38,587 nucleotides of DNA from an uncultured Bacilli bacterium (GTDB lineage Bacteria > Bacillota_I > Bacilli_A > RF39 > UBA660). The stretch is from the NCBI GenBank assembly GCA_947625625.1, contig CANQPC010000011.1, positions 1 through 38,587 on the forward strand, written 5' to 3'. Numbering within the stretch: position 1 is the first letter of the stretch; each line of letters opens with the position of its first letter. The notes beneath the pieces were generated by a model that was not told the DNA's origin, ran no database searches, and saw only the letters and a list, made by a program, of their open reading frames with translations. Below are positions 18,855-38,550 of this stretch, piece after piece. The translations under genes and the position numbers were made by a program.

Positions 18855-20618
18855 TTATTCAGTTTTTTTGTCTTCTGGAGTTTTATCTTCTTCAGGTAAG
18901 ACAGGATCGATAGGTTCTTCTTTAGCTTTCTTTTTAGATATGGTTACTTTTAAAGTGTATCCTTCATAAATAGGATCTCCCGCTACTCTTCCTTGATGCA
19001 AAACGATATTTTCATCGACAGTGTCATTTTCTTCATACGAAATATCTAATGTTAAATTATATTCTTTAGCAAAATCTTGAACTTGTGATAAGGTCCATTT
19101 TTCTTTTACCATATCTGGGTAAACATCAACTTCGGGGATGTAAAGAACAACACTATCACCATCATATAATTTTGTTTCTTCATCTTCTTTGGGTTTGGGC
19201 TCTTGGTCGATTATTAAATCTTCTTTGTCCTTATATTCTGATGCATCTTCGACACTTTTTGTTTTCATTTCTACTCTTATACCATTTAATTCAAGTTTGG
19301 CTTTTATTTCATAATAATTTTTTCCTGTATAATCTTCGAGAACTAAATATTTTTTACCGGTCGATTCGACGATGGTAATGGTACTTCCTTTAGTTTTGGT
19401 CGAACCACTTTTAGGTTCTGTCCTAATTACCAAGCCTTCTTCGATGTCTTTACTCTCTTCACTTTTGGTAGTGTATTTTAAGCCGGCATCTTCTATTTTA
19501 GCAATGGCTTCTTCGGTAGTTAAGCCTATTACATCTGGTACTTTAACTTCTTTAACATCATTATTATTGATTAATAGAACGACGATTGCTAAAACGATTA
19601 GGACAACAAGTAAAACTATGGCAAGAATAATTGGTAATTTATTTTTTTCTTTTGTTTTTTCTTGAGAATCTTCATCTTTAGTATCTAATGGCTTATCAAC
19701 GGTACTTTTCTTTGCTTCTTTATTTATTGTCGGAACGACTTTAGTCTCCTCTAAGTCATTTTCGGGATATTCATATACTAATCTTTTCTCGTTTGTTCTA
19801 TCCATGGCAGTTTGTAAATCATTATACATTTCTCTTACATTATCATATCTGTTCTTAGGGTTTTTGGCAGTCGCTTTTAAAAGAATATTTTCAACTGATT
19901 GAGGTATTGTCGGATTTTGCTTGCGGACGCTAGGTAATTTTTCTTTCATATGTTTTAATGCTATTTCGACCGCTGTATCACCTTTAAAAGGTACTGAACC
20001 GGTAAGTAATTCGTACATTAATATTCCAAGAGAATAAATATCACTTTTTATGGTAGAACCTTTTCCATTGGCTTGTTCGGGTGGTAAGTAATGAACCGAA
20101 CCCATAACGGAATTGGTTTGTGTAAGTTGAGTGGAATTTAAGGCCATAGCTATTCCGAAGTCGGTTATTTTGATTAGACCATTATCTTCAATCATAATGT
20201 TTTGAGGCTTAATATCACGATGAATTATATAAGCTTCATGAGCATGTGATAGTCCATCAGTTAGCTGACTCATAATGTCAATTACTTCAGTTAAGGTTAG
20301 AGCTCCTCTTTTTTGAAGAAGCTGTTTTAAGGTTTTTCCTTCAATATATTCCATGACAATATAATAGTTTCCATCTTCTTCCCCAACGTCATATACTTCA
20401 ACAATATTAGGGTGTGACAAATTAGAAACTGATAGGGCTTCCCTTTTGAATCTACGAATAAATTTTTCATCAGTAGAGAGATCTCCCCTTAATACTTTAA
20501 TGGCTACTTTGCGGTCAAGAATGGTATCATTAGCTAAGTAAACATTAGCCATTCCGCCTTCACCAATCGTTTTGATTATTTCATATCTTTCATTTATTTT
20601 TTGACCTCTTGATAACAT
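18855..20618 (-). CDS. prkC: Ser/Thr protein kinase with PASTA domains
   Basis: 587 residues. The kinase domain (12-270) is complete: GEGGMANVY, VAIKVL (K41), HRDIKPQN (D135) and DFG (153-155). A Lys-rich linker, one membrane span (about 328-351) and three PASTA-like units (from about 357, 420 and 490) follow, ending in an acidic Pro/Lys tail. Such kinases sense muropeptides or lipid II outside and phosphorylate growth and translation factors inside. The start overlaps the prpC stop (TAATG). Kinase, phosphatase and RsgA in one operon is the classical arrangement. Confidence 0.96.
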   Translation of the reverse strand: MLSRGQKINERYEIIKTIGEGGMANVYLANDTILDRKVAIKVLRGDLSTDEKFIRRFKREALSVSNLSHPNIVEVYDVGEEDGNYYIVMEYIEGKTLKQLLQKRGALTLTEVIDIMSQLTDGLSHAHEAYIIHRDIKPQNIMIEDNGLIKITDFGIAMALNSTQLTQTNSVMGSVHYLPPEQANGKGSTIKSDIYSLGILMYELLTGSVPFKGDTAVEIALKHMKEKLPSVRKQNPTIPQSVENILLKATAKNPKNRYDNVREMYNDLQTAMDRTNEKRLVYEYPENDLEETKVVPTINKEAKKSTVDKPLDTKDEDSQEKTKEKNKLPIILAIVLLVVLIVLAIVVLLINNNDVKEVKVPDVIGLTTEEAIAKIEDAGLKYTTKSEESKDIEEGLVIRTEPKSGSTKTKGSTITIVESTGKKYLVLEDYTGKNYYEIKAKLELNGIRVEMKTKSVEDASEYKDKEDLIIDQEPKPKEDEETKLYDGDSVVLYIPEVDVYPDMVKEKWTLSQVQDFAKEYNLTLDISYEENDTVDENIVLHQGRVAGDPIYEGYTLKVTISKKKAKEEPIDPVLPEEDKTPEDKKTE

Positions 20619-21358
20619 TATAAATCACCAGTTTCCTTTATTAGATAAGCAATTGATATATTATCTGTTCCTCCACGCATATTGCTTTTTTTGATTAATT
20701 TTTCAACTTGTTCTTCAATTCCAAGATTACTATTTAATACTTTTTCAATCTGCTCGTCATTTACCATATTAGTTAAACCATCACTACATAGAAATAAGGC
20801 CCTTACGGTGTTGTCAACATCAAAAATATCGATTTCTATTGGATCATTTGCTCCAAGGGCTCTTGTTAGTAAGTTCTTTCGAGGATGAAATTTAGCTTGC
20901 TCGGGAGTTAATTCACCAGTTGAAACAAGTAAATTTACTAAAGTATGATCCTTTGTTATTTTATGTAATTTTTCATTTTTCATGACATAACCAGATGAAT
21001 CGCCAATATTTCCATATAATATGTAATCATCAGTTTTTATTGCTACGACAAGAGTAGTTCCCATTCCTTTGCTTTCTGGATGCTCCTCGGTATAAGAAAA
21101 TATTTTGTCATTAATTTCTTTTACTATATTTCGAAGCCATTCGATACAATCTTCTTTTTTTCCGAGACTATCTTTCGATTCAAAGCTTTCGGTGAGATGT
21201 TCGATAGCAATATTTGAAGCTACTTCGCCAGCTTTATGTCCGCCCATACCATCCGCTACCGCTAACATAAACTCGTTATTTTTATTATTTACAATAATAA
21301 CATTATCTTCATTATGGGTTCTTACTTTTCCAGCGTCAGTCATATAAAAGGTCTGCAT
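20618..21358 (-). CDS. prpC: PP2C-type Ser/Thr phosphatase (PrpC/Stp)
   Basis: 246 residues of the PPM family, with the metal-binding Asp in ADGMGGHKAGEVAS, GNIGDSSGYV, CSDGLTNMV and GGTDNISIAYL. It opposes PrkC by removing phosphate from the same targets. The N-terminus MQTFYMTDAGKVRTHNEDN is typical. GGAAGTG lies before the ATG within the 11-base gap after rlmN. Confidence 0.96.
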   Translation of the reverse strand: MQTFYMTDAGKVRTHNEDNVIIVNNKNNEFMLAVADGMGGHKAGEVASNIAIEHLTESFESKDSLGKKEDCIEWLRNIVKEINDKIFSYTEEHPESKGMGTTLVVAIKTDDYILYGNIGDSSGYVMKNEKLHKITKDHTLVNLLVSTGELTPEQAKFHPRKNLLTRALGANDPIEIDIFDVDNTVRALFLCSDGLTNMVNDEQIEKVLNSNLGIEEQVEKLIKKSNMRGGTDNISIAYLIKETGDL

Positions 21359-25208: not shown

Positions 25209-27308
25209 TTATAACTTAGTTATATTTGGATGCCCCTTCATAAGTTTTTTGATGCCTATAGGATGAGGAAAGGCTACAGTTATTATTGATTTATCAACAC
25301 TTATAATTATTCCTTCGCCAAACTCAGTATGGCTTATTCTTTCACCAACACTGTATTCAGCATTTTTATCGATAACTTTTTTTATTTTAGGTACAATCTT
25401 GTTGAATAATTTGTTTTCTTCAATATCTAAATATTCTCGATCAATTTCATTTATGAATCTACTTGGTTTATTAGAACTGGTGTTTCCAAAGAGCATACGC
25501 ATCTTAGCTGAAAGTAGATATAATTTTTTCTTAGCTCTAGTAATTGCTACATAACAAAGCCTTCTCTCTTCTTCGATAGCAGATAGGCTTCCATCATTTA
25601 TAGCATTATAATGAGGAAAAATACCCTCTTCCATACCGACAATAAAGACATAATCAAATTCTAATCCTTTGACAGAGTGTACTGTCATTAAGCTAACTCT
25701 ACCGGAACTGTCTTGATGTTCACTCATATCGCTGACAAGAGAAATTTCTTCGAGAAAATCTCCTAAAGTGGCAGATCCATATTCTTCTTCATAATTTTTA
25801 GTAATTGATTTAAATTCGTTTAAATTTTCTAATCTTATTTCATCTTCAAGAAGCTTAGAAGTAGACAACTCCTTTTTGATACCGCTTTTTTCTAATATGG
25901 CATCAACTAACTCGGTAATTGTTAGAGTTTCACTTAAAGAAGTTAAATTTTCGATCATTTTTTTGAATTCTAATTCTTTTCCTGAAGTGATAGCTTCATA
26001 GATAGAAGTACCATTTTCATAGGCTCTATTAGTTAAATTTTCGATAGTTTTTTCGCCAATGCCCCTCTTTGGAACATTGATTATTCTAAGAAGGCTGATA
26101 TCATCTTTTTGATTATTAATTAATCTTAGATAACATAATAAATCTTTTATTTCTTTTCGATTATAAAAATAAAAGCTTCCAACAACACGATATTTAATAT
26201 TATTTTTTAGCATTTCTTCTTCGATAGCACGCGATTGAGCATTAGTTCGATAAAGAATAGCAATATCTTCCTCATTTACACCGCTACTAACTAATTTTTT
26301 TATTTCTTCCGCTACAAAGTTTCCTTCTTCTTTTTCATTTCCTACTATTCGATAAACTATTTTATCGCCAGTTGGGTTATTACTCCATAGTTTTTTATCT
26401 TTACGTTCGGTATTGTTTCGAATAACGCAATTAGCGGCATTTAAGATAGTCTTAGTCGAACGATAGTTTTCTTCAAGCATAATGGTTTTGGCTTCGGGAT
26501 AATCTTTCTCAAAATTGAGAATATTCTTATAATTGGCTCCTCGAAAGGCATATATTGACTGGTCGTTATCACCAACAACAAAAAGATTTCGATATTTAGA
26601 GGCAAGAAGCTTACTAAAAGTGTATTGGGCTTCATTGGTGTCTTGATATTCATCAATTAAAATGTATTTGTACAAATCTTGATACTTTTCTAGAATGTTA
26701 GGGTAATTTTTAAATAGTTTGATGGGTAATACTAATAGGTCATCAAAATCGACGGAATTACCTCTTTTTAATTTATCTTGATATTCTCGGTATACTTCGA
26801 CAATTTTGGAATCAAATTCTACTTTGGAAAATGATTCAATTCCCATCATAGCATTTTTAGCGGAACTTATTTTATTTTTGATTTCTCTTGGATTATAGTA
26901 GTCTTTAGACATATTAAAATCTTTCATAATTTTTTTTATAATCGTCAATACATCATCACTATCAATAATGGAGAAATTTCTATCGTAACCTAATAGGTCA
27001 TAATTTTCTTTTAATATTTTTAAACCTAAAGAGTGAAAAGTAGAAATTTGAATGCTATAGGCAGATGAACCTATTAATTTTATTACTCTATCTTTCATTT
27101 CTTTGGCAGCTTTATTTGTAAATGTTATTGCTAAAATATTTAAAGGGGATACGCCTTTTTCAATAATATTGGCAATGCGATTTGTCAATACTTTGGTCTT
27201 CCCTGAACCAGCTCCCGCTAGGACGAGCATAGGGCCATCAATATGAGCTACAGCTTTAGCTTGCTCAGGATTTAATTCTTGTGTATGCATTTTGTCAACT
27301 TCTTTCAT
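25209..27308 (-). CDS. pcrA: ATP-dependent DNA helicase PcrA
   Basis: 699 residues, a UvrD/Rep superfamily 1 helicase used in repair and in removing RecA or stalled RNA polymerase. Motifs: GAGSGKT (32-38), ITFTNKAAKEMK (Ia), IDEYQDTN (II), GDNDQSIYAFRGA (III), YRSTKTI, LMTVHSVKGLEFDYV (V) and VAITRAKKKLYLL (VI). The C-terminus (about 650-699) has the Tudor-like GERISHTEFGEG segment that binds RNA polymerase. The start at 27308 lacks a clear ribosome site; an ATG at 27290 with a weak GAAG is an alternative. Confidence 0.96.
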   Translation of the reverse strand: MKEVDKMHTQELNPEQAKAVAHIDGPMLVLAGAGSGKTKVLTNRIANIIEKGVSPLNILAITFTNKAAKEMKDRVIKLIGSSAYSIQISTFHSLGLKILKENYDLLGYDRNFSIIDSDDVLTIIKKIMKDFNMSKDYYNPREIKNKISSAKNAMMGIESFSKVEFDSKIVEVYREYQDKLKRGNSVDFDDLLVLPIKLFKNYPNILEKYQDLYKYILIDEYQDTNEAQYTFSKLLASKYRNLFVVGDNDQSIYAFRGANYKNILNFEKDYPEAKTIMLEENYRSTKTILNAANCVIRNNTERKDKKLWSNNPTGDKIVYRIVGNEKEEGNFVAEEIKKLVSSGVNEEDIAILYRTNAQSRAIEEEMLKNNIKYRVVGSFYFYNRKEIKDLLCYLRLINNQKDDISLLRIINVPKRGIGEKTIENLTNRAYENGTSIYEAITSGKELEFKKMIENLTSLSETLTITELVDAILEKSGIKKELSTSKLLEDEIRLENLNEFKSITKNYEEEYGSATLGDFLEEISLVSDMSEHQDSSGRVSLMTVHSVKGLEFDYVFIVGMEEGIFPHYNAINDGSLSAIEEERRLCYVAITRAKKKLYLLSAKMRMLFGNTSSNKPSRFINEIDREYLDIEENKLFNKIVPKIKKVIDKNAEYSVGERISHTEFGEGIIISVDKSIITVAFPHPIGIKKLMKGHPNITKL

Positions 27309-27341
27309 TTGGTAGTATAGAAAATATTCTTTTCATAATAA

Positions 27342-27370
27342 ATTATACCATGTATAGTTAGCATTGACAA
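27342..27370 (-). promoter_or_regulatory. Sigma-A-type promoter of pcrA
   Basis: Minus-strand TTGTCA (27365-27370), 17 bases, TATAAT (27342-27347) with TG before the -10; the pcrA start codon is 33 bases downstream. Confidence 0.8.
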
Positions 27371-27390
27371 TTTAATAATTTAATTTTTGT

Positions 27391-27421
27391 AAAAAAAAGA
27401 AGAAAGTTTTGGTCTTTCTTC
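27391..27421 (-). terminator. Terminator of the holin/pseudo-amidase transcript
   Basis: GAAGAAAG (27399-27406) and CTTTCTTC (27414-27421) form a stem followed on the minus strand by eight T residues. It lies almost 200 bases beyond the pseudo-amidase stop. Confidence 0.8.
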
Positions 27422-27615
27422 ACAAAAGATTTGACTGGAGATTTTATTACTTTATTTACTTGGTTTAGAAGCTAGTTAAATTTTTAGATATTTTTTTCTT
27501 GTCTCTTTAATGATTATATTATTTGTTTCCTTAATTATATTTATTCTTTTTATATGAAACGTTTTCTATTATATTTGCTCTTTTGGCGGTTGTATCTTTC
27601 AATAATTCTATCTAA

Positions 27616-28293
27616 TTAATTTTCTTTTAATATAGTTGGTTTTTCAGTAGTAAACTTATATAGTTCGTCGGTCCAAGCTATATCATAATAGGTCTTTTCT
27701 TTGCCAAGAGCCATATATAATTTCTTGTTATAGTAATACTTTTTTACTACTGATTTACTGTTTTTCTTGAGTAGAGATAGATTGGTATCACAATCCGCTG
27801 CTTCTTTTAAATATAAATCTTCTTTATTATAGACTGTATCTCCTATTAAAAATGGACGCTCTTTAGATGATGATATTTTTTTATTTATTTTGGCGATAAA
27901 ACTATTCCATTCTGAATTAGTAATAAAGTAAGATTTATATTGATCTTTATGTTCTTGATATTTTACCACTTTATCGATAGTCAAATTATATCTATTTAAA
28001 ATGTCCGCGATTAAGGTGGCAGCGTTTTCTTCGGCCTTATTCTTTCTTTGGAAATTTTTTTTATATGAATATATTTTTATGGTAATGTTTTGGGAATTGT
28101 CTTCTTTGATATACTTAATAATTTTGCTATCATCAATAATATAGTTAAAATATATAGTATCTATCTCATTTGTTATTTTTTCATTAGTAATATTGTCTTT
28201 ATTGAGATAATAAACTGTTATTGTCGTTGGAAAATATGAAGAATTTAAGTCATATGTAAGTAATAAATCATGGTTCTTTAATATTTTAGCCAC
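27616..28293 (-). CDS. Amidase_2-fold protein without zinc ligands, with C-terminal SH3-like tail
   Basis: 225 residues. Residues 20-140 follow the T7-lysozyme/XlyA-type amidase pattern: TTITVYYLN, IYFNYIIDDSKIIKYI, KAEENAATLIADILNRYNL, then IDKVVKYQEHKDQYKS and SEWNSFIAKI. The three zinc ligands (His, His, Cys) appear replaced by Y28, Y112 and K120, so amidase activity is unlikely. The tail (146-225, with FLIGDTVYNKEDLYL) resembles a cell-wall-binding SH3-like module. I chose the GTG at 28293, preceded by AAGAAGG and overlapping the holin stop by eight bases; the ATG at 28323 has no site. It looks like a phage lysis pair that was kept after its enzyme died. Confidence 0.7.
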   Translation of the reverse strand: MAKILKNHDLLLTYDLNSSYFPTTITVYYLNKDNITNEKITNEIDTIYFNYIIDDSKIIKYIKEDNSQNITIKIYSYKKNFQRKNKAEENAATLIADILNRYNLTIDKVVKYQEHKDQYKSYFITNSEWNSFIAKINKKISSSKERPFLIGDTVYNKEDLYLKEAADCDTNLSLLKKNSKSVVKKYYYNKKLYMALGKEKTYYDIAWTDELYKFTTEKPTILKEN

Positions 28294-28561
28294 TTTTGCC
28301 TTCTTCGATAAGTTTTTCGACATTATGAATTAGATTATAGCCAGTTTCGGCAAAGACTCCGCTCATTGTTATAGCAAGATTAAAGTCTTTGGTAATGACA
28401 AAGTATACTAATGATGCACATAATCCAATAACAATATTTTGAATAATAATTAAATTGTTATTAATATATATGCTTTTCTTAGATAATGCTCCTAAAATCC
28501 AAGTTACAATCATTGTTATTAATGTTATGATAAGCTCGGCATTTTCAGTTATAATTTTCAA
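28286..28561 (-). CDS. Phage-type holin
   Basis: 91 residues with two or three membrane spans (about 8-28, 36-58, 60-75), the pattern IITLITMIVTWILGALSKK and a charged C-terminus KLIEEGKSG. This matches small phage holins of Firmicutes, which permeabilise the membrane or let the endolysin out. It starts with TTG after AAGGTG. It overlaps the pseudo-amidase gene, the order usual in phage lysis cassettes, but no other phage genes surround it. Confidence 0.7.
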   Translation of the reverse strand: MKIITENAELIITLITMIVTWILGALSKKSIYINNNLIIIQNIVIGLCASLVYFVITKDFNLAITMSGVFAETGYNLIHNVEKLIEEGKSG

Positions 28562-28589
28562 TTTTTCACCTTCTTTTTATAACTACTAT

Positions 28590-28618
28590 ATTTTATGAGA
28601 AGGTAATTTTTATTGTAA
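28590..28618 (-). promoter_or_regulatory. Promoter of the holin gene
   Basis: Minus-strand TTACAA (28613-28618), 17 bases, TAAAAT (28590-28595), about 29 bases before the TTG start. Confidence 0.45.
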
Positions 28619-28635
28619 TAATGATAGTCTAGGAG

Positions 28636-28676
28636 ACAAAAAAAAGATTGCTATTTTTTTTCAGTAGCAATCTTTT
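28636..28676 (-). terminator. Terminator after the surface-protein gene
   Basis: AAAAGATTGCTA (28642-28653) and TAGCAATCTTTT (28665-28676) form a 12-bp stem followed by a T-run on the minus strand. Confidence 0.85.
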
Positions 28677-28693
28677 ATTATCTAAATAATATT

Positions 28694-29920
28694 TTATACG
28701 GTTTTTGATTTCTTTAATTTATAGAAATAGTATCCAGAGTAACCGAGAGATCCTAATCCTACTAACCATGCAATAACTATTAAGAAACTACCTGTACCAG
28801 GATTTTTAGGAGCTTTACAAGTGTAGATTACTTCTTCTTTGAAGTCTTTTCCTTCGATTTTTATTTTTACTGTCTCTTGATCTGGAGTGCATCCTTCGAT
28901 TTTAGGAGAATCAACATCGTGAGTATAACCATCTTCTAGTTCTTCACGATGGTCGGGGTCGGGATCTCCACCAGGACATTCCATTTCTTCCCCATTTTCA
29001 TCGACACATTTATATGTTATATCAGAATTATAATCGGGTTCTGGTTCGTTAGGGACATCTTCACATATATCATATTCTATATAATATAATGCTGGAGATA
29101 ATACAGAATCTACTGGCTCATCAGTTTTGTTAGATCCTGTCCATTGATATTTGAAAGGTGTTATATTACTATTTTTCATAGCTTCACCAGTATATGTTCT
29201 ATGAACTACAGGTTTTATGTACCTTATATCACTTATAAAGGGATCATCAATTGTTGGTGTTTTGCCAGGAAAGAACGATCCGCTTACTAGTTTATCAGTA
29301 GAAACATTTTGATAATCTTCACCATTTCCTGCTACTTCTTCCCAATTTACAGAGTCATCGTCATTAGAGGTATACCATTTTCCATGTAATATATAATTAA
29401 TGACAGTTCCATCTTCAGCTGTCTCAGTAGCTATTTTGTATGTGAAGCTATTACTATCTGGTCCTTTTGTGGCAGCGCTTACAAATTCGTTTTTAACTGA
29501 ATCAAGTCTTTCAAAGCTTTGGCTAGCCGCTTTTTTCCAATTTGTATAAAACTCTTCTAAAGTCCAGGTGCCATTAGTAGAGCAATTATCACCCTCAACT
29601 AGCTCTCCCTTTTTTAAGCAAACTAAACCACTTTTTTTTATTTCTTCTTTAGTTACTTTATTAATGTTTGGAAAATAAGAACCACCTTTGGTTGACATTG
29701 TTCCAGTACAAGAACCCAAACTACTAGGATCTCCAGGGCATAAGGTCTTATTATTTAATAATGTACTAACCTTGTTTATTTGATTGAAGAAAAAATAATC
29801 TTTATGATGTATACAGTTTTTAGTTGTATTACTATCTTCGGCTTTAGCAATTCCAAGACTACTAATTCCTATTAGAGTAATAACTGATACCATACCAATT
29901 TTTAATAATTTATTTTTCAC
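28694..29920 (-). CDS. Secreted protein with NPGTG sorting signal
   Basis: 408 residues. Residues 1-27 are a signal peptide (KIGMVSVITLIGISSLGIAKA, in two stretches). The end reads KNPGTGSFLIVIAWLVGLGS, then a second hydrophobic stretch and KLKKSKTV: a five-residue motif, a membrane span and a basic tail, the layout of sortase substrates, with NPGTG in place of LPXTG. The ectodomain carries several Cys (for example CIHHKDYFFF, CPGDPSSLGSCTG, CEDVPNEPEPDYN and a CVDENGEEMECPGGDP repeat-like segment), unusual for Gram-positive exported proteins. It starts with GTG after GGAGG. The binding target is unknown, and no sortase gene is in the window. Confidence 0.78.
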   Translation of the reverse strand: MKNKLLKIGMVSVITLIGISSLGIAKAEDSNTTKNCIHHKDYFFFNQINKVSTLLNNKTLCPGDPSSLGSCTGTMSTKGGSYFPNINKVTKEEIKKSGLVCLKKGELVEGDNCSTNGTWTLEEFYTNWKKAASQSFERLDSVKNEFVSAATKGPDSNSFTYKIATETAEDGTVINYILHGKWYTSNDDDSVNWEEVAGNGEDYQNVSTDKLVSGSFFPGKTPTIDDPFISDIRYIKPVVHRTYTGEAMKNSNITPFKYQWTGSNKTDEPVDSVLSPALYYIEYDICEDVPNEPEPDYNSDITYKCVDENGEEMECPGGDPDPDHREELEDGYTHDVDSPKIEGCTPDQETVKIKIEGKDFKEEVIYTCKAPKNPGTGSFLIVIAWLVGLGSLGYSGYYFYKLKKSKTV

Positions 29921-29949
29921 TTATTATCCTCCTATCCTATGATGATTTA

Positions 29950-29978
29950 ATTATACAACAATTTTATTGGTAATGCAA
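29950..29978 (-). promoter_or_regulatory. Promoter of the NPGTG surface-protein gene
   Basis: Minus-strand TTGCAT (29973-29978), 17 bases, TATAAT (29950-29955) preceded by TTG; the GTG start is 30 bases downstream. Confidence 0.75.
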
Positions 29979-30024
29979 GGGAAAAACAAAAAATTATAAT
30001 TTTCTTGGCAATAGAATATATATT

Positions 30025-31035
30025 TTATTTATATAGTGTATCTGTTGCTACAGCAGTTAAAGTAAGATCAGATGTTATTCCTTTTTGGTAAGCATAATAA
30101 GCTGCCGCTCCAATCATAGCAGCATTATCAGTACAATAGCTAATTCTTGGGAACGATACTTCAATATTTTCTTTTTGGCATTCTTCTGTTAATTTTTCTC
30201 GGAGGCCTTTATTAGCGGAAACTCCGCCTGCTACAATTAGATTATGTACGTTCTTTTCCTTTAGTGCGGAGATAGTCTTTTTTACTAATACTGTCACTAC
30301 TCTATTTTGAAATGTGGTACATAAGTTTTCAATATTTACTTGGTTTCCTCTTTGATTTTCGTTATGAACTAAATTTATTACAGCGGATTTGATACCACTA
30401 AAACTGAAATTATAGCTTTTGTCATTTAATGGAATTGGTAAATCATAAGTATCTTTACCTAAATGAGCTAATTTATCTACTTTTGGTCCTCCTGGGTACT
30501 CTAAGCCAATTATTTTAGCTACTTTGTCATAACATTCGCCAATGGCGTCATCTAAAGTTCCACCAATTTTTTCAAATGAATAGTCTTCTTTCATATATAT
30601 TAATTCTGTATGCCCTCCACTTACTACTAAGGCTATTAAAGGGAAGGTGAGTCTATGTTCGAGATTATTAGCATATATGTGACCTGCTATATGGTGAACT
30701 GGAATAAGTGGCTTTCCAGTTACTAATGATATTGTCTTAGCTGCTTCGACACCTATCATAAGGCTTCCTATTAATCCAGGACCATATGTTACTCCAATAG
30801 CGGTAATATCTTCTATTTGCATTTTAGATTTCGTAAGTAGTTCTTCTAAAACGATCGTTATATTTTCTATATGGTTTCTACTAGCTATTTCTGGCACTAC
30901 TCCACCATAATTTTTATGAATGTCGATTTGGCTTAAGACAACAGTAGCAATTTCCCAAGTACCATTTTTGATAATACTCATACTAGTTTCATCACAGCTT
31001 GTCTCTATTCCTAATATATAAATATCTTTTTTCAT
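30025..31035 (-). CDS. tsaD: tRNA N6-threonylcarbamoyladenosine synthase subunit TsaD
   Basis: 336 residues of the ASKHA/Kae1 family. Metal site [10 protein letters not shown], phosphate loops IETSCDETS and VSGGHTEL, and [13 protein letters not shown] near the end. TsaD transfers threonylcarbamoyl to A37 of ANN-decoding tRNAs, working with TsaB and TsaE, whose genes precede it in the same operon. It starts three bases after the rimI stop, with AGGTGATG as ribosome site. Confidence 0.97.
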
Positions 31036-31038
31036 TTA

Positions 31039-31392
31039 CTACATCACCTGTTTTTCCATTAATATGGCATCTTCATCCCCATAATAAAATTTTCTTAAGG
31101 CTACTTCATGAAAACCATATTTTTTGTACAAATTGCGAGCTATTTCATTACTTATTCGGACTTCAAGAGTTATATTTTCAACGTGATTTTCAATAGCTAT
31201 AGAAATTAAATAACTCATAAGTTTATTTCCAATTCCTTTTTTTCTATTTTCTTCGGTAACAAAGAAATCATCTATTTCGATGCGGTCATAAATAAGACTG
31301 TATTTGAGATAACCTATCACTTCGTTTTTGTCAACATATTCAATGACTCTAAGGAAAGGGCTCAAGTCATTATTTCTTGTTTCTCTTAGCAC
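31039..31392 (-). CDS. rimI: GNAT acetyltransferase, RimI-type
   Basis: 117 residues, short for RimI (usually about 150) because the N-terminal strand and helix are abbreviated. The acetyl-CoA motif is RKKGIGNKLM, followed by ITLEVRISNEIARNLYKKYG, typical of N-alpha-acetyltransferases of ribosomal protein S18. The start is GTG after GGAGG, overlapping tsaB. The place between tsaB and tsaD is conserved in Firmicutes; the true substrate is inferred from that. Confidence 0.85.
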   Translation of the reverse strand: MLRETRNNDLSPFLRVIEYVDKNEVIGYLKYSLIYDRIEIDDFFVTEENRKKGIGNKLMSYLISIAIENHVENITLEVRISNEIARNLYKKYGFHEVALRKFYYGDEDAILMEKQVM

Positions 31393-31973
31393 TGTTTTTC
31401 CTCCATGGCTTGAGGTAATTTAAGATAAACTGGATTAACTGCATGTGGGTTAATGCTTTTTAAATTTTTAGCATAAGAGGCTATTTCTTCAATATTGTAT
31501 GCATTTGTTTTATCAATAACTACTGCTTGGTATTGCTCCTTTAACTTCATTACTTCATTACTGTTACCAAATTTTTCGATAATTGTATTATAGTTTTTAT
31601 CGTATAGTCCAATATAATAATTATCATGTTTAGCATCAATTACAGATAGTAAATAATCTTCTTTATGACCTATCACTCTAGCAAGAAGCGATGTTATGGG
31701 AATAATTCTTATATTAAGTAAATAAGCATATGTCTTAGCAATCGTTACTCCTATGCGAACACCAGTGAATGATCCTGGACCATTAATGATTATTATTTCG
31801 GTAACATCTTGAGGTGTAATATTATTTTCTTTCAAGATATCTTCAATGAATTTGACTACATAGGTAGAATGCTTACGAGGAATATCTTCATGGATTTTAG
31901 ATAATATTTTTTGATCTCTTATTAAGGCAATAGATACATCACTATCAGATGTATCTATAAATAAACTTATCAT
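31386..31973 (-). CDS. tsaB: TsaB, scaffold of the t6A synthase
   Basis: 195 residues, ASKHA fold: MISLFIDTSDSDVSIALI at the start and INGPGSFTGVRIGVTIAKTY, the signature of TsaB (YeaZ). TsaB has no catalytic metal site but bridges TsaD and TsaE. It overlaps tsaE by four bases (ATGA). Confidence 0.95.
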   Translation of the reverse strand: MISLFIDTSDSDVSIALIRDQKILSKIHEDIPRKHSTYVVKFIEDILKENNITPQDVTEIIIINGPGSFTGVRIGVTIAKTYAYLLNIRIIPITSLLARVIGHKEDYLLSVIDAKHDNYYIGLYDKNYNTIIEKFGNSNEVMKLKEQYQAVVIDKTNAYNIEEIASYAKNLKSINPHAVNPVYLKLPQAMEEKQC

Positions 31974-32419
31974 ATTATGGCCTCACAGATACTAATATAT
32001 TTTTCTCCATGGGGTGTAAGAATCATAACTCTCGTATTTTCTCCAGTTATTTTAAATTTGATATCTAATCTTTCTTCTGGAAGAATATCTTTAATCATAT
32101 CAGCCCACTCGATAATAGTTACACCGCCTTTGTCAAAATATTCTTCAATGCCAATATCTTCTTTTGAATCCTCTAATCTATACACATCCATGTGATATAG
32201 AGGAAGTTCACCTTCATACTCTTTAATTATAGTAAACGTAGGGGAAGTTATCTCTTCAATTCCCATCGAATGAGCAAAACCTTTAGTAAAAACTGTCTTA
32301 CCGCTTCCTAATTCACCGTTTAAGCAAATAACCATACCTGGGAATTTTTCAGATTCTATATTTTGGGCTATTGCGATTGTTTCATTATCACTATGTGTCG
32401 TTATTTTGTATTCTTCCAT
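31970..32419 (-). CDS. tsaE: TsaE, ATPase of the t6A synthase
   Basis: 149 residues with Walker A GELGSGKT, the TSPTFTIIKEYEG motif, and HMDVYRLED and IIEWADMI, which mark TsaE (YjeE). It drives the TsaB-TsaD complex by ATP hydrolysis. The start at 32419 (AAAGGTGAG upstream) is better than the GTG at 32428. First gene of tsaE-tsaB-rimI-tsaD. Confidence 0.96.
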   Translation of the reverse strand: MEEYKITTHSDNETIAIAQNIESEKFPGMVICLNGELGSGKTVFTKGFAHSMGIEEITSPTFTIIKEYEGELPLYHMDVYRLEDSKEDIGIEEYFDKGGVTIIEWADMIKDILPEERLDIKFKITGENTRVMILTPHGEKYISICEAII

Positions 32420-32449
32420 TTTTCTCACCTTTCTTTTTATGTCTATTTT

Positions 32450-32479
32450 ATTATATCAAATATCGAAGGTAAAATACAA
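32450..32479 (-). promoter_or_regulatory. Promoter of the tsaE-tsaB-rimI-tsaD operon
   Basis: Minus-strand TTGTAT (32474-32479), 18 bases, TATAAT (32450-32455) with an extended TGA before the -10. Confidence 0.6.
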
Positions 32480-32547
32480 TAGTTTTTTATACTTTTATAA
32501 TTTAATATTTGTAAAATATTGACTATACCTAAAAGTAAGATATTTAG

Positions 32548-32576
32548 TTGTGTGTTTAATCTTGGTATGTTATAAT
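32548..32576 (+). promoter_or_regulatory. Promoter of the zinc-ribbon membrane gene pair
   Basis: TTGTGT (32548-32553), 17 bases, TATAAT (32571-32576) with TATGT before the -10 (extended), 20 bases before the ATG at 32596. Confidence 0.7.
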
Positions 32577-32595
32577 TTAAACAGGAGGAAATACC

Positions 32596-33177
32596 ATGAA
32601 CTGCAGTAAATGTAAAAAGAAAAATATTAAGAAGGCTCTCTATTGTAAATATTGTGGAAATAAATTTACTCAGAGAGAAAAAGAAAAAGCCGAAAATGAA
32701 GGACTAGTAGCACTTCTAAAAAAAATAAAAAAATGGTATGAAGCATGTACTTTAAAAGTAATTACTGATAATATTATTTTTAAGTTATTAGTTCTCTTGT
32801 TAGTAATAGGTGCTGGAATATACAATTTTGTTAAAATTGGTAATTCTTCAAAGACACAAATACTAGATAGTGAAAAATACAATATTTTTTATAATAGTGA
32901 TAAAGAAGAATATTATATTGTCATAGATGATAATTTAAAAGATGAAGAACTTAGTATTCCACTTAATTTATATGTTCCCAATAAAGTAAATAATTTAAAT
33001 TTGACTTATTATAATGAAAAAAATGAAATAATCGGAGAGCATAAATATGATAAAAAAGAGGATATTGTACTTAGTGCTAATATATCTTCTGATAATTATT
33101 ATATTCTAAATGATGGAAATGATAAATTAAAAGTTTTTGTTTATTATGAGGTGAATGACAATGACATCGAAAAATAA
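32596..33177 (+). CDS. Zinc-ribbon membrane protein A
   Basis: 193 residues. A zinc ribbon (CSKCKKKNIKKALYCKYCG, Cys 3, 6, 17, 20) is followed by a basic helical linker, one membrane span (about 56-78, FKLLVLLLVIGAGIYNFV) and a polar C-terminal domain rich in Asp, Asn and Tyr (80-193). With a positive cytoplasmic side the ribbon stays inside and the C-terminal domain faces outward. GGAGG precedes the ATG. It overlaps the next gene, which has the same plan. The family is not recognised; some Firmicute proteins of this plan are general zinc-ribbon membrane sensors of unknown role. Confidence 0.75.
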   Translation: MNCSKCKKKNIKKALYCKYCGNKFTQREKEKAENEGLVALLKKIKKWYEACTLKVITDNIIFKLLVLLLVIGAGIYNFVKIGNSSKTQILDSEKYNIFYNSDKEEYYIVIDDNLKDEELSIPLNLYVPNKVNNLNLTYYNEKNEIIGEHKYDKKEDIVLSANISSDNYYILNDGNDKLKVFVYYEVNDNDIEK

Positions 33178-37979: not shown

Positions 37980-38550
37980 TTATTTTTTTTGAAAGTAAAT
38001 TTCAATCGATTCAGCTATAGAAGTAATAAGTAAATCTTGATATTCTTCTTGTCTTAATGCATAATTTTCACCGGGATTGGAAATGAAGCCAGCTTCAATT
38101 AATACTCCTGGGTATTTTATAAATTTATACATATAATAAGTATTATCTTTTTTTATTTCTCTAACATTAGAGATTTTATTCTTCAAATGCTCTGTCATTA
38201 GTTCCGCTATTAACTTATTATTTTTATTTTTATCAGTATAAAAGACTTGAAGTCCCCGCCAAGAAGATGAAGTTGTCGAGTTTAAATGAAGCGATATATA
38301 CATGTCTGGAGATAGATCATTAATATACTTAGCTCTGTTATATAAATCATTTCGTTTACGATTGACAGTTGTCGTCGATAGATCTTTATCATCTTCTCTA
38401 GTTAAATAAACAATTGCCCCTCTCGATACTAACTCTTTCTCTAATTTTTTAGTAAGTATCAAATTAAGATTCTTTTCTATTATTGGTCCACTTTGAGCGC
38501 CAGCGTCGACTCCACCATGTGCAGGAATAGGAAAAGTCCAAAAATATCAT
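37980..38550 (-). pseudogene. CwlD-like N-acetylmuramoyl-L-alanine amidase, frameshifted near the N-terminus
   Basis: The open part (37980-38546) reads PAHGGVDAGAQSGP, IIEKNLNLI (zinc Glu), YISLHLNSTTSSSWRGLQVF (second zinc His), and GVLIEAGFISNPGENYALRQ (catalytic Glu): an Amidase_3 enzyme closest to CwlD, the spore cortex amidase, by its SSSWRGLQVFY segment. The ATG at 38550 opens MIFLD in another frame. Removing ten bases (38526-38535) joins it exactly into MIFLDPAHGGVDAGAQ. The frame has no other start codon of the usual kind except the internal TTG at 38462, which would lack the zinc His. Either a real frameshift or a sequence error near the window end. Confidence 0.65.

Follow-up and report, generated by a model that had tools for sequence, protein, structure and literature searches.

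Between tsaD and pcrA, in a housekeeping region of the chromosome of an uncultured gut bacterium, a gene for a phage-like holin overlaps a gene derived from a peptidoglycan amidase whose active site is lost, raising the question whether the host has adopted this pair or is about to lose what a phage left behind. The original prediction, made on the whole stretch of 38,587 nucleotides analysed here (the window), held that the pair may have been adopted by the host, with protein release, envelope sensing or immunity to lysis as conceivable uses.

A holin gene overlaps an amidase-derived gene

The locus comprises the following features, all on the minus strand:
25209..27308 (-), pcrA helicase, one flank of the conserved slot
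27399..27421 (-), terminator-like hairpin downstream of the amidase-derived gene, from a scan (1 found, 1.3 expected)
27616..28293 (-), amidase-derived gene (pseudo-endolysin) for 225 aa, starting at GTG, active site lost
27619..27858 (-), C-terminal domain specific to the genus, with about 62% identity to intact orthologues
27859..28293 (-), degenerate Amidase_2 (PlyL-type) domain, residues 1-145
28286..28293 (-), 8-bp overlap of holin stop and amidase start, GTGGCTAA
28286..28561 (-), gene for a 91-aa Hol44-like holin with two hydrophobic segments, starting at TTG
28590..28639 (-), promoter-like sites upstream of the holin, by consensus match only
28641..28676 (-), inverted repeat and T run between surface-protein gene and holin, read from the sequence
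28694..29920 (-), neighbouring gene for a secreted surface protein with an NPGTG-type sorting signal
30025..31035 (-), tsaD, the opposite flank of the slot

As predicted, a phage-like holin gene overlaps a downstream amidase-like gene, both frames being open, and an equally long 8-bp holin/amidase overlap, ATGGTTAA, is present in the congener G004. We took the GTG at 28293 as start of the amidase-derived gene because the intact orthologues have their ATG start at the aligned position, and residues (Y28, K73, Y112, K120) are counted from it; an alternative ATG start, giving 235 aa, does not have this support from the orthologue alignment.

The upstream gene encodes a small hydrophobic protein directly upstream of an endolysin-type gene, as a holin would be. 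Against Pfam PF16079 (Phage_holin_5_2 / Hol44) it scored 19.0 bits, below the gathering cut-off of 29.2, a value reached exactly by a more distant homologue from the same bacterial family; its orthologues in six congeners are 64-84% identical to it. The holin gene precedes the amidase gene in G004, G009 and G002 and in two phage-like modules (L092, L103), where the homologues occupy the holin position after tail-like genes and before the amidase. The identification of 28286-28561 as a holin gene rests on these homologues in phage lysis modules, and pore or lesion activity is predicted for its product.

The amidase fold is retained without the active site

The 225-residue protein matched a PHROG amidase (E=1e-9) and, in the PDB, PlyL and PlyG (E=4e-6 to 2e-5; phmmer, PlyG E=4e-6). 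Its AF2 model is weak overall (mean pLDDT 56), consisting of an amidase core block with pLDDT of about 77-93 and a C-terminal part without resolved structure; the top Foldseek matches of this model were PlyL, PlyG and XlyA, with E values from about 3e-7 (PlyL) to 4e-6. AF2, Foldseek and phmmer thus identify the same Amidase_2 (PF01510) core fold, in agreement with the PHROG match and with the predicted retention of this fold. T7 lysozyme, originally proposed for comparison, was discarded as nearest template, as PlyL-type Amidase_2 enzymes rank first and it is not among the 50 best Foldseek matches listed. The PF01510 score is 15.9 bits, below the gathering cut-off of 26, compared to 75-86 bits for the intact orthologues.

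The C-terminal domain gave no Pfam match, a single PDB match at chance level (E=0.5) and nothing in phages or IMG/VR, and its AF2 model, computed with three sequences, reached a pLDDT of 45. Near relatives of the 225-residue protein were not found in the viral contigs searched.

Alignment to the orthologues located the former active-site positions:
27934..27936 (-), codon for K120, zinc Cys position
27958..27960 (-), codon for Y112, second zinc His position
28075..28077 (-), codon for K73, catalytic Glu position (Glu90 of PlyL/EfAmi1)
28210..28212 (-), codon for Y28, first zinc His position

The alignment with intact congeneric proteins confirmed the predicted replacement of the zinc ligands (H30>Y28, H130>Y112, C138>K120) and revealed that the damage is larger: the catalytic Glu is replaced by K73, a 14-residue active-site loop with a conserved Trp/His pair is deleted, and the second CxH His is changed to Y122. 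The His/His/Cys zinc site and the catalytic Glu of an active Amidase_2, positions whose roles are given by EfAmi1 and PlyL (PMC10167349), are therefore all missing. Of the 56 positions with a conservation of at least 90% among 17 homologues, each homologue keeps 53-56, compared to 15 in the 225-residue protein. A frameshift as source of the substitutions was rejected, because the in-frame homology is confined to a single reading frame. From the missing catalytic residues we infer that the protein is catalytically inactive.

Expression signals and neighbouring genes

The ATG start of the orthologous amidases is changed to GTG in the window, their Shine-Dalgarno sequence AGGAGG to the weaker AGAAGG, and the holin has a TTG start in the window as compared to ATG in the congeners. 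Frame, overlap, promoter and terminator had all been described as intact; the open frame and the overlap stand, but the expression signals are weakened. Promoter-like matches were in moderate excess (24 versus 17.3 expected in shuffles, sd 3.8) and terminator-like matches were not (1 versus 1.3), so neither kind of match is evidence of function. A TAAAAT box is found at about the same distance from the holin in most congeners. The inverted repeat with T run upstream of the holin, absent from the output of the terminator scan, is likely a terminator, and an Rfam scan of 26000-33000 gave no match. Elsewhere in the window, at 18855-21358, a PASTA-type Ser/Thr kinase and PP2C phosphatase pair adjoins rlmN in the same gene run.

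The holin is conserved in the tsaD-pcrA slot

We compared the locus in 11 genomes of the genus, of which G007 was uninformative, both flanking genes being missing from its assembly. In the 10 informative genomes, with the locus divided between two contigs in G001, G002 and G008, the gene order is tsaE-tsaB-rimI-tsaD, an optional surface protein, an optional holin plus amidase, and pcrA. The holin occupies the same slot in 7 of the 10; the others, G001, G003 and G010, form one clade in which the surface protein is present and the holin absent. Searching for the pair in relatives, as had been suggested, identified an intact linked amidase in G004 and G009, one with zinc ligands kept and the catalytic Glu lost (E>K) in G002, and the holin alone in G005, G006 and G008. 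Decayed amidase remnants 3' of the holin were considered for these last three genomes and rejected, this region yielding only noise below 19 bits.

In the tree the window genome is sister to G008 and G002 is sister to G006, both with support of 100, the deeper branching being without resolution. Each of these sister pairs combines a dead or damaged amidase copy in one species with no copy in the other, so that an ancestral pair would imply repeated loss or inactivation of the amidase. The window protein groups with that of G002 (support 96); this grouping and the shared E>K change may stem from long-branch attraction or from convergence by a G-to-A change.

After tsaD, 6 of the 10 informative congeners encode a rapidly evolving surface protein with an NPxTG/xPxTG-like sorting signal (28694-29920 in the window; L070-L076); it is absent from G002, G004, G006 and G009. 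Further genes in the tsaD-pcrA interval (L077, L078, L081) differ by species and include symporter-like, zinc-ribbon and XRE regulator genes; with such different additions from species to species, the position following the amidase appears to acquire genes often.

The holin of the window is 84% identical to that of the sister G008, compared to 86% for tsaD and 85% for pcrA, and four-fold synonymous sites are near saturation even in this pair. Species without the amidase do not have consistently longer holin branches, the holin being equally conserved with or without it, and selection thus holds the holin in place. Around the locus, the parts of the window that were read contained no recognised phage gene, and neither did the slot of the congeners; instead of the phage structural or replication genes that would adjoin a prophage lysis module, tsaE-tsaB-rimI-tsaD and pcrA flank the locus in the congeners checked. 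Adoption of the holin by the host is well supported, because it is found in the same slot in seven species, is conserved like a core gene and has no phage genes nearby. The predicted adoption of the pair thus holds for the holin, but for its partner the picture is mixed, since relatives with intact zinc ligands exist and yet substitution in the window is not neutral, as described below. That the sister species G008 has no amidase at the locus argues against an essential part of the dead protein in the role of the holin, which probably does its job for the host without further need of the linked enzyme.

The two domains of the amidase-derived protein diverged unevenly

In the catalytic domain, identity to G009 and G004 has fallen to 36%, while these two share 83% with each other; in the C-terminal domain it is 62%, and G009 and G004 share 72%. 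Likewise, the window branch measures 1.16 substitutions/site in the catalytic domain (0.06-0.11 in G009/G004) and 0.35 in the C-terminal domain (0.15-0.26 in G009/G004), and separate branch lengths per domain fit better (partition LRT, 2dlnL 28.3, df 4, p=1.1e-5). This argues against drift of the whole gene, which would affect both domains alike. When neutral evolution was simulated to a similar divergence, at about 0.4 substitutions/site, none of 1000 frames stayed open and about 11-12 stops were expected, a conservative result as the simulation ignores indels.

The open frame and the constraint on the C-terminal domain thus speak against neutral substitution, named beforehand as a finding that would undermine adoption. 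For the same two reasons it is well supported that the 225-residue frame was kept long after constraint on the catalytic domain had been lifted; the gene has not been drifting for long as a pseudogene. Present-day maintenance of the frame is uncertain. In codon models (dN/dS) the synonymous sites are saturated and branch lengths meaningless, so that present selection is beyond measurement, and the relative result, with dN/dS raised on the focal branch (p=6e-5) and different from 1 (p=8e-4), is not relied on. The protein has also lost the acidic linker and the amphipathic C-terminal tail of the orthologues, and the net charge of its first 145 residues has changed from -4/-5 to +4.

Unlinked amidases in the genus

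The sole Amidase_2 above the Pfam cut-off in the window genome is intact, unlinked and located on another contig (G000 contig C14:24242-24748; L011, L115), followed by an adjoining HNH gene and without a nearby holin; its C-terminal domain differs from that of the linked protein. Camelysin-like and glycosidase-like genes are its neighbours, and it has the appearance of a second relic from a phage lysis module. At the edge of the window itself (37980-38462) lies a gene for a CwlD-like N-acetylmuramoyl-L-alanine amidase, by eye of the Amidase_3 type. G005, which has no linked amidase, encodes one intact unlinked amidase, and a relocated or replacement amidase is plausible for the window genome and G005. 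Linked Amidase_2 proteins are the only ones in G004, G009 and G002. No Amidase_2 was found anywhere in the assemblies of G006 (93% complete) and G008 (65% complete), both of which keep the holin, nor in the holin-less genomes G001, G003 and G010. As G006 keeps the holin without any Amidase_2 found, replacement by another amidase does not apply throughout the genus.

A proposed path from lysis cassette to host locus

The reading that we prefer, with a probability of roughly 0.5 for the scenario as a whole, is that a lysis cassette became a host locus in which the holin was kept and the linked amidase died and was then long retained. It builds on what is seen directly, namely the conserved locus, the dead active site, the uneven constraint and the repeated absence of the amidase beside a kept holin. 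A cassette of a Hol44-like holin and a PlyL-type amidase would have settled between tsaD and pcrA in the ancestor of most of the genus and become a host locus. The holin would have kept a host function, possibly as a regulated pore or lesion in the membrane that serves export or envelope turnover, for which the linked amidase was not needed; a role in export is suggested by analogy with TcdE/TcdL. In the lineage of the window the linked amidase would have lost catalysis and then been long kept via its C-terminal domain, which may bind the wall or a partner, and the remaining wall cutting may be carried out by the intact unlinked Amidase_2 on C14. Against this scenario speak G008, where the remnant is dispensable as there is no amidase at the locus, and the degraded start codon, ribosome site and C-terminal tail in the window.

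These same points would be expected if the protein were functionless and the gene in late decay, catalysis being lost, signals weakened and the open frame the last stage before absence, an explanation we rate as a serious contender at somewhat under even odds. The complete absence of amidase remnants in G005, G006 and G008, the loss of the tail together with ATG>GTG and AGGAGG>AGAAGG, and G002 as an intermediate with E>K are consistent with it, but the frame is open despite a divergence that would have produced about 11-12 stops under neutrality, and the C-terminal domain, unlike the catalytic one, stayed under near-normal constraint. Any decay must therefore be recent and must have followed a long non-catalytic stage under selection. 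Conversely, the 225-residue protein could be a maintained full-length dead amidase, evolved from the active pair of two congeneric lineages and serving a host-owned holin as a partner without catalysis, be it adaptor, plug or wall anchor, a view that we hold only tentatively. That it actively regulates holin or lysis, either like an antiholin or by occupying the wall and so protecting the cell from prophage lysis, is unlikely: the kept overlap with the holin, the conserved C-terminal domain and the charge reversal of the first 145 residues would suit such a regulator, but in three congeners, where the holin is kept and no amidase is linked to it, no dedicated regulator is needed. Least probable are leftovers of an ordinary prophage without host function, since membership of both proteins in phage lysis families, with homologues in phage-like modules (L092, L103), is outweighed by the lack of recognised phage genes in the window parts read around the locus, by the same slot in seven species with near-saturated synonymous sites and by a holin conservation equal to that of core genes.

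Comparison with known systems

The holin family was matched in 24 of 386 genomes of the bacterial family. In other genera of this family the holin is apparently an orphan among housekeeping-type genes (L093, L095, L096, L099, L100, L104), no lysin being recognised by eye within about 1.5 kb on either side. Also by eye, the gene that follows or adjoins it encodes a protein with SH3 or M23-like features in L094, L097, L102 and L105 and a GH25-like lysozyme in L101 and L098. This suggests that holin-only loci outside a phage context may be common in the family and easily misread as prophage debris.

The core of the 225-residue protein shares fold and sequence relationship with PlyL, PlyG and XlyA (PDB 1YB0, 2L47, 3HMB), but in contrast to these enzymes it has no zinc ligands, catalytic Glu or active-site loop, and its C-terminal domain is without known relatives. 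An Amidase_2 fold without catalytic zinc site also characterises the non-catalytic PGRPs, which are among the weaker fold matches; these are animal immune receptors, whereas the window protein, likened to them by its predicted fold, has the active-site loop deleted. Type 10 secretion systems (Serratia ChiW/ChiX) likewise represent host use of a phage lysis cassette of holin and wall hydrolase, but they combine an active endolysin with adjacent cargo in Gram-negative bacteria, whereas the window bacterium groups with MAGs labelled Bacilli/Tenericutes, its linked hydrolase lacks the catalytic residues or, in congeners, is absent, and no cargo was identified at the locus, the neighbouring surface protein having its own signal sequence.

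The best precedent, by analogy, is TcdE/TcdL of Clostridioides difficile, where a holin used by the host lies beside a PlyL-like endolysin remnant, the endolysin being intact in other clades (PMC6200909, PMC12150058), and where TcdE secretion works without the TcdL remnant (PMC12150058). Both loci keep a chromosomal phage-derived holin beside an endolysin derivative that is inactive, here as judged from its residues; TcdE and the window holin are likened by locus arrangement and published role. TcdL is a fragment of 53 aa, whereas here the full frame and the C-terminal domain are kept, and the setting is the tsaD-pcrA housekeeping region, with no toxin and no known cargo. At one chromosomal address, a single genus presents the active pair, an amidase that has lost the Glu and kept the zinc site, a fully dead one and the holin alone, a series that opens the question posed by TcdE/TcdL, namely the host role of a holin whose lysin is dead or has disappeared, to testing by comparison and experiment.
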